A stretch of DNA of 53,651 bases from positions 1-53,651 of the forward strand of contig JBAJNM010000010.1 in the NCBI GenBank assembly GCA_036881865.1, given 5' to 3'. Shown one piece after another: positions 21,452 through 25,844 of the stretch (position 1 is its first letter; every line of letters begins with the position of its first letter). The notes beneath the pieces were generated by a model. The model did no database searches, was not told the DNA's origin, and was given only the letters and a program-made list of their open reading frames with translations. The position numbers and the translations under genes are program-made. Origin of the DNA: Parvularculales bacterium. Its GTDB lineage: Bacteria; Pseudomonadota; Alphaproteobacteria; JAPOUT01; JBAJNM01.

Positions 21452-21753
21452 CCCAATTCCTTTCTATTGATTGGAGGTGAGAACACCACAATATGAAACC
21501 TGCATAGACTCCTCTGATCCTATTCACAATGCAATGCATTAATCCTCAAAATACTGCATTTTACCCTTAATCAATGAAAGTGATTAGGAGTTTCAATACT
21601 TAATGTTTAAGCCCGTCAGAGTGAAGAGTTTGGTGTCAGCGGTGGCATTCAAAGCATTTCGAAGCCCCGGAGAGCAAGAGAGACCTGTATAAGGCCCTCT
21701 AAGTTGGGTGATGCCTGACAGAACACCTTCGGTGATTGTACATAATATGGAAA
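21452..21753. other. Intergenic region between sodC and the mobile island
   Basis: The 302 bases hold the sodC upstream region and A/T-rich sequence leading to the outer element's left inverted repeat. I see no coding region with a plausible start and no recognisable RNA. The palindromic stretch TGCAATGCATTAA near 21529-21541 lies upstream of sodC and could be regulatory, but this is weak. Confidence 0.4.
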
Positions 21754-21780
21754 GGGGAACTATATACTAAAATACCCAAA
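21754..21780 (+). repeat. Outer terminal inverted repeat, left
   Basis: The 27 bases start GGGGAACTATATACTAAAAT and are the inverted partner of 25780-25806 with two mismatches. The transposase remnant begins a few bases inside. Confidence 0.75.
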
Positions 21781-21788
21781 TTCCAGTT

Positions 21789-21995
21789 TTGGAGCTTGAC
21801 TTTCGCGGCTATTACGATACCTATCATTACATGAGCCATAAGCACCTTGGGCGCTATGTGAACGAGTTTTCCGGCAGATATAATGACAGGGATAGTGATA
21901 CCCTTATTCAAATGGGAAACATTGTCGCGGAACTAAGTGATAAGCGACTTTCCTATAAGGATTTGATTGCCAAAGAAAGGGGCTTATATACTTAA
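21789..21995 (+). pseudogene. IS1595/ISXO2-like transposase, C-terminal remnant interrupted by the inner element
   Basis: The translated stretch FRGYYDTYHYMSHKHLGRYV, followed by NEFSGRYNDRD and KRLSYKDLIAK, matches the C-terminal part of IS1595 family DDE transposases (the RGxYGTYHHVSxKHLxRYVxEFxxRxN motif and the final GKRLTYxDL). The N-terminal two thirds, including the zinc ribbon and catalytic Asp residues, is absent. The frame now ends inside the inner element's left repeat. When 21979-23683 (the element plus one target copy) is removed, the frame continues GCC AAA GAA AAC TGA, giving a natural end at 23687-23689. Confidence 0.82.
21971..21978 (+). repeat. Target-site duplication, left copy (CAAAGAAA)
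   Basis: The 8 bases CAAAGAAA directly before the GGGG end of the inner element are identical to 23676-23683 directly after its other end. An 8-bp duplication is characteristic of IS1595 family transposition. Confidence 0.85.
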
Positions 21996-22002
21996 GTAAC
22001 GT
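21979..22002 (+). repeat. Inner terminal inverted repeat, left
   Basis: The 24 bases beginning GGGGCTTATATACTTAAG are the exact reverse complement of 23652-23675. The ankyrin gene starts 44 bases inside this end, so any outward or inward promoter lies close to the repeat. Confidence 0.9.
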
Positions 22003-22045
22003 AAATCTTGCTCACCTGTTTTTGATGGCTTTTTGGAAGTCTGGC

Positions 22046-23089
22046 ATGAAAACAATATCTACCATCCTTTGTAGTATGTTTTTTCTGGTTTTCACACCAG
22101 TGACACTTCATGCGCAGGAGAACGTGTTTCTGTCCTGGGGTTTCTGGAAAAATGCGACTGCTGCCGATGTGCAGGCTGAAATCGAGAGGGGTTCTGATAT
22201 AAAGGATACCTTTCACGAAGAAGACTGTTTGCCGCAAATCTGTAATAATGGATGGACACCCCTTCATTATGCAGTGCGTTATAACCATTCACCGGAGAGT
22301 GTTCGGGTCTTGATTGAACACGGTGTCCATATTGACGCAAAGACAGATTATGGCCAGACTCCTCTTCATTGGGCAGCGGACTACAACGAAGAGCCCGCAA
22401 TAGTCAAACTGCTGCTTGACCACGGGGCCGACATAGAGGCCCGGAACAGGTGGGGAAGTACGCCCCTACATGGGGCTGTAGAAAAGAATAAATCAGCAGT
22501 CATAAAAGCCTTGCTGGAGAGAGGGGCTGATATAGAGGCACGTGACAAGCACGGAACGACGCCCTTTCTCGGGGCAGTAGGTTTTAACGGAAGACCGGAC
22601 GTGTTGAAACTGCTTATAGAGTACGGCGCCGACATTGAGGCGCGTGACGGAAAAGGAAGGTCGGCTCTGCACTGGGCCGCCGTACGTGACGATGTGCTTA
22701 TGGCCGTTCCTATAGATGAAGCAATAGTTTTAAAGAATATTGAGTTATTGCTGGATCATGGCATGGACATAAATGTACGGGATAACCCTGAAAACGCAAC
22801 ACCTCTGCTCTGGGCGGCGGTACGGAGTAAAAGTCCTGCAGTGCTGGAACTCTTGCTTAACCGTGGGGCAGATATGGAGATCCGTGGCGGTGCATTTGGT
22901 CATACGCCTTTGCTTACTGCCGCACGGCTCACAAGCAATCCGGCTATCGTGGAAACACTGCTCAGGGGGGGAGCAGACGCAACGGCGCAGGATGAATTCG
23001 GTCGCACAGCATTTGAACTCGCCAAGGAGAATGAAAGTCTGAAAGACACCAAAGCCTACTGGCTGCTCAACGAGGCACAGTACAGGTAG
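22046..23089 (+). CDS. Secreted ankyrin-repeat protein (element cargo)
   Basis: The 347-residue protein has a clear Sec signal peptide (MKTISTILCSMFFLV... ending LHAQE, cleavage after about residue 23). It is followed by about eight ankyrin repeats of roughly 33 residues with the hallmark TPLHxA...LLxHGADIEAR (for example GQTPLHWAADYNEEPAIVK). Repeat 5 has a 13-residue insertion. Ankyrin repeats bind proteins, and here the product would act in the periplasm or outside the cell. ATG 22046 is preferred over upstream TTG/ATG codons because GGAAG lies eight bases before it and the signal peptide begins there. The C-terminal AKENESLKDTKAYWLLNEAQ recurs in a short ORF downstream. The partner is unknown. 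Confidence 0.9.
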   Translation: MKTISTILCSMFFLVFTPVTLHAQENVFLSWGFWKNATAADVQAEIERGSDIKDTFHEEDCLPQICNNGWTPLHYAVRYNHSPESVRVLIEHGVHIDAKTDYGQTPLHWAADYNEEPAIVKLLLDHGADIEARNRWGSTPLHGAVEKNKSAVIKALLERGADIEARDKHGTTPFLGAVGFNGRPDVLKLLIEYGADIEARDGKGRSALHWAAVRDDVLMAVPIDEAIVLKNIELLLDHGMDINVRDNPENATPLLWAAVRSKSPAVLELLLNRGADMEIRGGAFGHTPLLTAARLTSNPAIVETLLRGGADATAQDEFGRTAFELAKENESLKDTKAYWLLNEAQYR

Positions 23090-23167
23090 AGTGAAAAAAC
23101 ATGAAAAAACAGATTGTTACCATGGCATATAAACTTAAAAAAACTAGCAATACTGTGAGGGGATAAT

Positions 23168-23389
23168 ATGGAGATTGGACTTATAGTGTTTCTAGGAATC
23201 ATAATCTTATTCTTTTATTTATGGCTTCGTGTTGATGAAATAAAGTCGCCGTTTTGGAATTCGTTCTGGCATAACATGTGCATTGCTGTGACGATCTGTT
23301 TTTCTGGCATGTTTATACTTGTGGAAGATTTCACTCTTGTGGAGATAAGTGACTTTTTTAATAGAGTCTTGTTTCACTTGGTAACATGA
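23168..23389 (+). CDS. Small membrane protein in the ankyrin element
   Basis: This is a 73-residue product with two predicted membrane helices (about residues 3-21, LIVFLGIIILFFYLWL, and 36-52, MCIAVTICFSGMFILV). GAGGGG lies seven bases before the ATG. I recognise no family. It lies 78 bases after the ankyrin gene on the same strand and inside the same inverted repeats, so it may be co-transcribed. It could be an accessory or immunity-like partner, but nothing in the sequence proves a role. Confidence 0.55.
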   Translation: MEIGLIVFLGIIILFFYLWLRVDEIKSPFWNSFWHNMCIAVTICFSGMFILVEDFTLVEISDFFNRVLFHLVT

Positions 23390-23454
23390 AAGGAAAAAGC
23401 GGCGCTTGATGATATTCGACTTGCTCAAGCCGCATGCTTAAAGGAGATGTTCCA

Positions 23455-23613
23455 ATGAATAGAATGATGGAAGAAGAGCTTAGGGAAACGGCCAGTGGCA
23501 TGACATGCAAACAGGGCAAACAGGGTTTTACCCCATTTGACTACGCCAAGGAGAATGAATATCTCAAAAACACCAAAGCCTACTGGCTGCTCAACGAGGC
23601 GCAGTACAGGTAG
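23455..23613 (+). CDS. 52-residue ORF ending in an ankyrin C-terminal copy
   Basis: The ORF has a strong ribosome-binding site (AAAGGAG, eight bases before ATG). Its first 22 residues are unrelated to the ankyrin gene. Residues about 24-52 (GFTPFDYAKENEYLKNTKAY, then WLLNEAQYR) copy the C-terminus of the ankyrin protein at 22999-23089 with a few substitutions. It is either a degenerate remnant of a second ankyrin gene or a short expressed fusion. At DNA level the last ~90 bases are clearly homologous. Confidence 0.55.
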   Translation: MNRMMEEELRETASGMTCKQGKQGFTPFDYAKENEYLKNTKAYWLLNEAQYR

Positions 23614-23651
23614 AAATTTGTGTTTTTGGCTAAAATATTGGAAAAATGAGA

Positions 23652-23675
23652 ACGTTACTTAAGTATATAAGCCCC
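23652..23675 (-). repeat. Inner terminal inverted repeat, right
   Basis: This is the exact 24-base reverse complement of 21979-22002, ending ...AAGCCCC at the element boundary. Confidence 0.9.
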
Positions 23676-23683
23676 CAAAGAAA
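23676..23683 (+). repeat. Target-site duplication, right copy (CAAAGAAA)
   Basis: CAAAGAAA follows the right inverted repeat and is identical to 21971-21978. It is followed by ACTGACGG, which supplies the original last codons and stop of the interrupted transposase. Confidence 0.85.
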
Positions 23684-23816
23684 ACTGACGGTCTCTACGG
23701 AAGGTAGGAAGCGGGGCATTGAACGTCATAAGGAGCGCAAGACCGGTGCCGATACCCTTGCCGCCTTCTCCCCTTTCATCCGGTGCCCCATGTCAACCAC
23801 CGGAGGTTAAAACCTC
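23684..23816 (+). other. Outer-element spacer before the Sel1 gene
   Basis: This segment contains the tail of the transposase (stop at 23687-23689) and about 125 bases with no recognised gene. It ends with GGAGG at 23803-23807, nine bases before the Sel1 ATG. A frame reading RKRGIERHKERKTGADTL is open through part of it but has no start and no known match, and may be a remnant. Confidence 0.45.
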
Positions 23817-25328
23817 ATGAGAACGTTTCAAGAGTGGCTAGAACTTGCTGAGCAGGGCGATGCAGAAGCGCAATTTATTGTGGGGAAGAGGTGTGCCGAG
23901 GGAGACGGTGCCCCGCAAGATTACAATAAGGCCGTTACATGGTTTCGCCTTGCTGCTGAGCAGGGTAACGCAAAGGCACAAAATGGTTTGGGGGTGATGT
24001 TTCAAGCTGGGAGAGGCGTACCGCAGGATTACAAGCAGGCGGTAAAATGCTATCGCCTTGCTGCCGAGCAAGGCTATGCAAGCGCACAAATCAATCTGGG
24101 CGTTAAATATAAAACCGGACGAGGTGTACCGCAGGATTACAAGCAGGCGGTAAAATACTATCGCCTTGCTGCTAAGCAAGATCATGCAGAAGGACAATAC
24201 AATCTGGGAACAAGTTATCATAAAGGAGAAGGTGTTCCCCAAGATTACAAACAAGCGATAGAATGGTTTCGCCTAGCCGCCGAACAAGACCATGCAAGGG
24301 CGCAATGTGCTCTGGGCGTAATGTATGCAACCGGGCAAGGCGTGTCACAAGATGAAGTTCTGGCAATCCAGTGGTATCGCCGCGCCGCCCAACAAGGAAA
24401 CGCTAAGGCGCAATATAATTTGGGGCGGAGATATGCTAGGGGAAACGGCGTCCCGCAGGATTACGAGCAGGCAGCAACATGGTACCGCCGCGCCGCCGAA
24501 CAGGGTGATGCAAAGGCTCAATTTAGCTTGGGAATGATGTATGCCAGCGGAGATGGTGTTCCGCAGGATTATAAACAGGCGGTCAAATGGTACCTCCTTG
24601 CTGCAGAGCAGGGGATTGCAGGTGCACAAAATAATTTGGGGGTAGCTTATTACAACGGAAAAGGCGTTCCCCAAGATTACAAACAGGCGATGACATGGTT
24701 TCGCCTTGCCGCCGAACAAGGCCATGCAAAGGCACAATATAATCTGGGAGAGATGTATAATGAGGGGCGTGGTATCCCGCAGGATGACGAACACGCTTAC
24801 ATGTGGTTTAACATTGCCGTATCAAATGACCACGAAAGAGCAAGAGAAGAGATAGAGGACATTGTGAAAATGATGACCCCAGAGCAAATAACAAAAGCAC
24901 AATTTAATCTGGGAGTGATGTATAACAAAGGAGAAGGCATCCCGCAGGATGACGAACAGGCGCTAACATGGTTTCACCGCGCTGCCGAACAAGGCCTTGC
25001 GGAGGCACAATACAATCTAGGGAATATGTATCGCACTGGAAGGGGTATTCTACAAGATAACGAACATGCAGCGAAATGGTATTACCTTGCTGCAGAGCAG
25101 GGGATTGCAGCAGCGCAAAACAATCTTGGCCTGATGTATGCCAACGGAGACGGCGTTCTGCAGGACTACGTACCCGCTTACATGTGGTTTAACATTGCCG
25201 CATCAAATGGCAACACAGAAGCAAAAAAATCAAGAGAGGGTATAGAGCAACAGATGACCTCTAAGCAGATAGCAGAAGCACTAGCTCTGGCACAAGAGTA
25301 CATAAGAAAAAACTATCAGGGCTGTTGA
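23817..25328 (+). CDS. Sel1-like repeat protein with 12 repeats (outer element cargo)
   Basis: This 503-residue protein is made almost entirely of 36-residue Sel1/TPR-like repeats (consensus AEQGxAxAQxNLGxMYxxGxGVPQDYxQAxxWxRxA). I count 12. There is no signal peptide, so it is probably cytosolic. Residues about 325-360 (AYMWFNIAVSNDHERAREEI then MMTPEQI) look like the C-terminal cap that also ends the protein (AYMWFNIAASNGNTEAKKS then QQMTSKQIAEAL). Three more repeats follow this inner cap, so two Sel1 genes may have fused in frame. The start ATG has GGAGG nine bases upstream. Sel1 proteins act as scaffolds; the partner is unknown. Confidence 0.92.
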   Translation: MRTFQEWLELAEQGDAEAQFIVGKRCAEGDGAPQDYNKAVTWFRLAAEQGNAKAQNGLGVMFQAGRGVPQDYKQAVKCYRLAAEQGYASAQINLGVKYKTGRGVPQDYKQAVKYYRLAAKQDHAEGQYNLGTSYHKGEGVPQDYKQAIEWFRLAAEQDHARAQCALGVMYATGQGVSQDEVLAIQWYRRAAQQGNAKAQYNLGRRYARGNGVPQDYEQAATWYRRAAEQGDAKAQFSLGMMYASGDGVPQDYKQAVKWYLLAAEQGIAGAQNNLGVAYYNGKGVPQDYKQAMTWFRLAAEQGHAKAQYNLGEMYNEGRGIPQDDEHAYMWFNIAVSNDHERAREEIEDIVKMMTPEQITKAQFNLGVMYNKGEGIPQDDEQALTWFHRAAEQGLAEAQYNLGNMYRTGRGILQDNEHAAKWYYLAAEQGIAAAQNNLGLMYANGDGVLQDYVPAYMWFNIAASNGNTEAKKSREGIEQQMTSKQIAEALALAQEYIRKNYQGC

Positions 25329-25505
25329 CGTAATTAACGTCCGTGCTTCTAAAAACCCTGTATTCATTTATGCTTGTCTTGTTTCGTGGGGATATGTGAT
25401 AAGGGTGTGTCGCCTAGCAAGCCGTTTTCGGTAACGGGAACATCGATTCTACCCAAACAAGAACCTAGAGACAGTGGCGGCCTAATCTTGTGAGGAGTGA
25501 ATGTA

Positions 25506-25658
25506 ATGGCCGAAAAAAGCAAAGACAGAGGGAGACCCCCACGGGTTATCCCCCCGATTAAGGACACGCCGGAGCGTGTTGCACGGGCTACCATGCAGGC
25601 TCCCCCCAAAAAGGAGTGGGACTATATGAAGGAAAACCCTAAAACTTCTCATTCATAA
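25506..25658 (+). CDS. Conserved-looking 50-residue ORF at the outer element's right end
   Basis: The product is basic and Pro-rich: GRPPRVIPPIKDTPERVARA, then MQAPPKKEWDYM. GAGGAG lies nine bases before ATG 25506, and a perfect intrinsic terminator follows 22 bases after the stop, so it looks expressed. I recall similar short IPPIxxTPExxA...PPKKxWxYL proteins next to IS1595-type transposases, but I could not check this. It may be an accessory transposition protein; function is unknown. Confidence 0.6.
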   Translation: MAEKSKDRGRPPRVIPPIKDTPERVARATMQAPPKKEWDYMKENPKTSHS

Positions 25659-25680
25659 TTCTCGGTAGCTATAACGATGA

Positions 25681-25717
25681 AACGGCAATCCAAGACGCTC
25701 GGATTGCCGTTTTTTTT
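25681..25717 (+). terminator. Intrinsic terminator after the 50-residue ORF
   Basis: AACGGCAATCC at 25681-25691 pairs perfectly with GGATTGCCGTT at 25701-25711 around a 9-base loop, followed by a run of T. This is a strong Rho-independent terminator on the plus strand, inside the outer element's right end. Confidence 0.92.
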
Positions 25718-25779
25718 GTGAAAAATGGACTCATAAGGGGATGATGAAAAACTCAAGCAAAGCCATCAGTAAATGAGGC

Positions 25780-25806
25780 TTTGGGTATTTTAGTATTTAG
25801 TTCCCT
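25780..25806 (-). repeat. Outer terminal inverted repeat, right
   Basis: The 27 bases TTTGGGTATTTTAGTATTTA... match the inverted left end (21754-21780) at 25 of 27 positions. Chromosomal genes resume right after, with cytochrome b561 ending at 25845. Confidence 0.75.
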
Positions 25807-25844
25807 TTAGATAGTGCGTCAGAGTTATTCAGCGTCTAGGCAAA

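Follow-up and report, generated by a model that had tools for sequence, protein, structure and literature searches.

How did a secreted ankyrin-repeat gene come to lie between two short inverted repeats with no transposase gene beside it, and has the same process multiplied ankyrin genes in this genome? Eukaryotic-type repeat proteins often occur in large sets in symbiont bacteria, and the route by which such sets expand is seldom traceable. The locus examined here lies in a window of 53,651 nucleotides (the whole stretch of DNA that was analysed), which we call contig C10 of a draft genome in 89 contigs (98.7% complete, 3.0% contamination); the collection searched includes no genome closely related to it. 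Genome-wide counts given below rest on pattern and family searches.

The original prediction described a transposase-less unit of 1,697 bp with 24-bp inverted ends and an 8-bp target duplication, and its coordinates proved exact. The features of this unit, called the inner element below, are as follows.

21971-21978, no strand: target duplication, left copy, CAAAGAAA
21979-23675, no strand: inner element, a mobile insertion cassette of 1,697 bp with IS1595-type ends and no transposase
21979-22002, + strand: left terminal inverted repeat, GGGGCTTATATACTTAAGTAACGT
22046-23089, + strand: gene for a predicted secreted ankyrin-repeat protein, 347 aa (Ank_2, E=1e-77)
23168-23389, + strand: 73-aa hydrophobic (predicted membrane) protein
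23434-23613, + strand: remnant of a second ankyrin gene, 3′ end only
23614-23651, no strand: 38-bp spacer from the ankyrin stop codon to the right end
23652-23675, − strand: right terminal inverted repeat, 24/24 identical to the left
23676-23683, no strand: target duplication, right copy, CAAAGAAA

The two copies of CAAAGAAA agree at 8/8 positions and lie directly outside both ends. The end sequence, allowing up to 3 mismatches, has 2 matches in the window and 0 in 100 shuffles, and this pair gave the top combined score for ends and duplication among all scanned loci, with 0 in the reversed-sequence control. No transposase was found between the ends, either among the ORFs or with family profiles of 21979-23675. 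On these sequence features the 1,697-bp unit is real and has moved recently.

Three ORFs lie inside, encoding the ankyrin protein, the 73-aa hydrophobic protein and a 59-aa product. The ankyrin ORF opens with TTG at 22022 and its likely start is the ATG at 22046; the protein begins MKTISTILCSMFFLVFTPVTLHAQ-, a Sec-type signal as judged by eye from the sequence alone, and ends in a conserved tail, ...LKDTKAYWLLNEAQYR. A profile search gave no family match for the 73-aa protein. The third ORF runs for 59 aa from ATG 23434 or for 52 aa from ATG 23455, and in the shorter form it had been counted as cargo. Its last 29 residues are 79% identical to the tail of the first ankyrin gene and the preceding 30 are unrelated; on this comparison it is a pseudogene remnant, the leftover 3′ end of an ankyrin gene. 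A promoter scan gave fewer matches than it gave in shuffles.

What the original prediction omitted is that the unit is nested, both in the remnant of an IS1595 transposase gene and in an older inverted-repeat element. This outer element comprises the following features.

21752-21780, + strand: left inverted repeat of the outer element, arm of 29 nt, 93% complementary
21754-25806, no strand: outer IS1595-type element, transposase deleted, Sel1 cargo
21789-21978, + strand: C-terminal part of a decayed IS1595-family transposase gene, split by the inner element, stop codon at 23686-23688
23817-25328, + strand: Sel1-repeat protein gene, passenger of the outer element, 503 aa (E=6e-137)
25506-25658, + strand: small ORF, MAEKSKDRGRPPRVIPPIKDTPERVARATMQ...
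25780-25808, − strand: right inverted repeat of the outer element, arm, 93% complementary

The transposase remnant directly adjoins the left repeat of the outer element and has weak matches, in the expected position, to PF12762 and NF033547. When the flanks of the inner element are joined with one copy of the duplication they read ...KRLSYKDLIAKEN-stop (...YKDLIAKEN-stop), a plausible natural C-terminus, so the inner element inserted into this gene a few codons short of the stop. The outer element is the older of the two. It has no complete transposase, and no target duplication with plausible ends was found for it at up to 2 mismatches. A remnant related to its Sel1 gene lies inside an element on contig C22 (below), and its small ORF resembles others in IS1595 transposons of further Alphaproteobacteria, which lie just inside the end away from the transposase. 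Proteins of 50-75 aa with a motif like RGRPxxxPxIxxTPExVARA, encoded at that position, recur in a number of IS1595 transposons from different genomes (window 25506-25658; L185:4035-4202; L196:2344-2565; L200:2006-2185); they match no Pfam family and may be an accessory factor of IS1595 elements.

The original prediction also raised the possibility of further copies of the ends around different cargo, and these were found; the refuting outcome that it named, no second occurrence of the ends anywhere, did not arise. Exact or near-exact 24-bp ends occur on contigs C49, C3, C14 and C58, and a relaxed end pattern has 59 matches in the draft genome; reversed, it has 4. The fetched loci were scanned for ends starting with GG and flanked by 8-bp duplications. 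Besides the element in the window, four pairs with perfect duplications were recovered (none in reversed sequence), together with one imperfect case.

C22:18638-20135 (L052:3139-4636): Sel1/ankyrin mosaic element, duplication TATAATAT, perfect
C60:169-4811 (L106): transposase-less cassette, 4,643 bp, duplication TAAACTTC, perfect
C15:12674-23731 (L105:1675-12732): transposon with a complete IS1595 transposase, 11,058 bp, duplication AAATTTTT, perfect
C1:592-766: 175-bp miniature element, duplication AAATCTTT, perfect
C50:2281-2432: element, duplication with one mismatch

Between intact ends the C22 element holds remnants of an ankyrin gene, of a DNA methyltransferase C-terminus and of Sel1 repeats, a mosaic that suggests passenger exchange between elements. 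The C60 cassette carries a UmuD-like peptidase, a truncated UmuC, a DUF3237 protein, a dehydrogenase and membrane proteins. Besides its transposase, the C15 transposon carries two methyltransferases, an SNF2 helicase, a NOV_C-domain protein and a DrmC-like protein (E=3e-57), which looks like a restriction or DISARM-like system. Miniature elements of 152-175 bp with GGTAATTATATACTTTAGT ends form a family of their own (L044:2594-2745, L112:1594-1745, L111:592-766, L113:1782-1933); they carry no cargo, and one has a perfect 8-bp duplication and one a duplication with a single mismatch. For the solitary ends (C49, C31, C42, C3:80586 and others) no convincing partner with a matching duplication was found. 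Two pairs, C3:20032-21361 and C58:683-2357, were rejected as duplication-flanked elements on their mismatched flanks and are counted as decayed or mixed pairs only.

Of the 29 clusters into which ankyrin matches in the genome fall, nine are no more than 300 bp from an end, where 0.44 would be expected; the maximum in 20,000 random placements was 5. For the other 20 clusters no end can be recognised within that distance, so duplication must have taken other routes as well. A secretion signal is common to many of the ankyrin proteins, as are the motif FWxxATxxDV in the N-terminal part and the tail LKxTKAYWxLNEAQYR at the C-terminus, and we infer from these sequences that they act outside the cytoplasm, in periplasmic or host-directed binding. 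At six loci (C10, C3, C14, C31, C22 and C49) the ankyrin stop codon lies 37-39 bp from the terminal repeat with alignable spacers, which supports carriage of ankyrin genes as cargo of the mobile unit; C48 is a decayed seventh case. Chance insertions next to ankyrin genes would not give so fixed a distance, and therefore terminal repeat and ankyrin 3′ end have moved together. The parts of a mobile unit are thus visible here, namely ends, duplication, interrupted gene and conserved junction of stop codon and terminal repeat, and expansion of an ankyrin family by transposition becomes directly testable.

An element like the probable parent lies on contig C49. Its 24-bp end is identical to that of the cassette, and the right end of the inner element with the next 27 bp is 94% identical to it over 51 bp. 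On the same strand, the C49 end is followed by an ankyrin gene, a membrane protein, a second ankyrin gene, an unknown protein and an IS1595 transposase, which matches NF033547 (E=1e-50) and PF12762. This transposase is without about 75 N-terminal residues and the other end of the element is absent; upstream of it lie tRNA-Ser and the C-terminal part of a further IS1595 transposase. The abutment of this second C-terminus on tRNA-Ser (L041:13640-13791) suggests a deletion or recombination between two transposase copies. The best reading of the cassette is that of a relative of the C49 element without the transposase.

We hold it very probable that the inner unit is a non-autonomous IS1595 element of the mobile insertion cassette type, inserted in trans and probably derived from a C49-like element, and that such elements contributed to ankyrin amplification. 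Its two intact IS1595-type ends bracket passenger genes where a transposase would otherwise lie. The cassette would have arisen from the larger element by loss of the transposase side, keeping the C49 order of ankyrin gene, membrane protein, ankyrin remnant and end, and an IS1595-family transposase supplied elsewhere would have inserted it, duplicating 8 bp. With ankyrin 3′ end and terminal repeat joined in a single module, repeated movement of elements with the same ends would have helped to amplify the Sec-exported ankyrin family of this genome. The stronger proposal is that transposition of such cassettes, by enzymes supplied in trans, was a main route to the roughly 25 secreted ankyrin proteins of this lineage, with terminal repeat and ankyrin 3′ end as a fixed mobile module and the ends decaying later; this we favour only slightly.

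The enzyme may instead have been of the C15 type, a reading that we regard as possible and rather doubtful. The C15 transposase is intact (362 aa) and lies in an element with perfect ends, GGGGATTATACGCTTAAGT, and a perfect duplication; these ends match those of the cassette at 16/19 positions. The C49 transposase, however, is physically linked to the 24-bp-identical end and to the same order of passengers, and that of C15 is only 41% identical to it. A putative N-terminal zinc ribbon, CPYCG...CKDC, is seen by eye in the C15 protein and is missing from the C49 protein, which lacks its N-terminus. Of the full IS1595 transposase with matching ends that the original prediction proposed to look for, a complete enzyme was found on C15 and a single identical end on C49, where the gene is truncated; in the draft assembly there is no complete transposase with exactly matching ends. 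Draft assemblies often lose repeats, and a complete element of the C49 type may thus have been missed.

It might also be supposed that the ends are mere insertion neighbours, left by small IS1595-derived elements that land in AT-rich DNA near ankyrin genes and carry none. Target duplications are AT-rich, as this would have it, and in at least one case a miniature element of 152 bp lies directly upstream of an ankyrin gene (C2:116093-116244). Yet ankyrin sequence lies between two outward-facing ends at C10, C3, C14 and C22, with perfect duplications at C10 and C22, and the 37-39 bp spacing at six loci is not expected from independent insertions, which leaves this account scarcely credible. Segmental duplication or homologous recombination between older copies, rather than transposition of a unit, could likewise have paired the ends: many ends have no partner or a mismatched one, pieces of ankyrin, methyltransferase and Sel1 genes are combined in the C22 element, and two transposase remnants meet at the tRNA-Ser gene on C49. 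Such an origin is very unlikely all the same, given that perfect 8-bp duplications adjoin the ends of the C10 and C22 units and that the gene interrupted at C10 regains a closed reading frame once the unit is removed.

The search of other genomes bears on how far such units have travelled. The 24-bp end, at up to 2 mismatches, is absent from 95 other genomes. Among 385 genomes of the class, the nearest transposases have 55-59% identity, and about 19 of their loci are elements of 1.7-4.5 kb with GGG-start ends and perfect 8-bp duplications; the ends are akin to GGGGATTATATAC (GGGxxTTATATAC-type) and many of the elements have passenger genes. The assignment of the ends to the IS1595 type is thereby upheld, the same end type and 8-bp duplications being found at the nearest IS1595 transposases elsewhere. 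The cargo of these related elements is mostly of methyltransferase or restriction type, as predicted from sequence, or consists of unknown genes, and in the set examined it never includes an ankyrin gene. As a side observation, IS1595 transposons of other Alphaproteobacteria often seem to carry DNA methyltransferases beside the transposase, some with nuclease-like genes (L185, L190, L193, L196, L198, L216, L217), and appear from their predicted genes to be compact mobile units resembling restriction-modification systems.

The ankyrin tail motif has 21 matches in the source genome and 1 to 7 weaker ones in each of 12 others. A scan of 20 loci around ankyrin relatives, drawn from 11 of these genomes, yielded nothing that combined a perfect duplication with ends alike at 13/18 positions or more, whereas a similar scan around IS1595 transposases elsewhere gave the approximately 19 elements noted above. 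The suggestion that the system spreads ankyrin proteins between genomes is thus not supported, since the ends are missing from the 95 other genomes and the ankyrin relatives examined in 11 genomes lie outside such elements; the evidence is for ankyrin amplification inside one genome.

Transposase-less mobile insertion cassettes with passenger genes are a described class (PMC3913671, PMC3129680), and MIC231A1 is moved by the IS231A transposase in trans, as reported in PMC3913671. The inner element has the structure of this class, with IS-type ends, a passenger gene and a target duplication. Like MIC231 of Bacillus cereus and mic-qnrD it combines IS inverted repeats, passenger and duplication with no transposase; unlike MIC231 it has IS1595-type rather than IS231 ends and a secreted ankyrin gene as cargo, and here, in contrast to those cassettes, the ankyrin 3′ end and one terminal repeat form a conserved module at at least six loci. 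The IS1595 family is characterised by 8-bp duplications and the DDE_Tnp_IS1595 domain (PMC8101967), and its members with passenger genes have been called 'transporter IS' (Siguier et al. 2009, as cited in PMC3129680). The inner element has in common with this family the 8-bp duplications and ends that start with GGG, and the C49 end is linked to a DDE_Tnp_IS1595 transposase; it differs in having no transposase of its own and is therefore a non-autonomous IS1595 derivative, not an IS. IS1595-type MITEs are likewise non-autonomous, with IS-type ends and an 8-bp duplication, and examples of 152-175 bp occur in the same genome, but MITEs are short and non-coding, and we rejected this class for a unit that is 1,697 bp long and contains an intact gene of 347 aa. 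We likewise rejected a composite transposon, as the unit is flanked by 24-bp ends only and not by two complete IS copies.

Amplified ankyrin cargo within one alphaproteobacterial genome is known from the RAGE of Orientia, a mobile element that amplifies ankyrin and TPR-type proteins (PMC10732058). RAGE is an integrative conjugative element with an integrase and tra genes, whereas the inner element is a 1.7-kb cassette with short inverted ends only, and no integrase or conjugation ORF was found in 21979-23675 or in the outer element, so an assignment to that class was set aside. In the literature searched, where subscription papers were covered only in part, we found no report linking ankyrin repeats (or Sel1) to IS passenger genes. 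A passenger-only ankyrin unit had been called little described; that holds for the ankyrin cargo, and not for the cassette class. The mechanism is of a known type, and the ankyrin cargo and its amplification appear to be undescribed. Since the class of element is already known, it is the cargo, and the scale reached within one genome, that are of interest: cassettes with IS1595-type ends can carry protein-interaction repeats, besides restriction or resistance genes.
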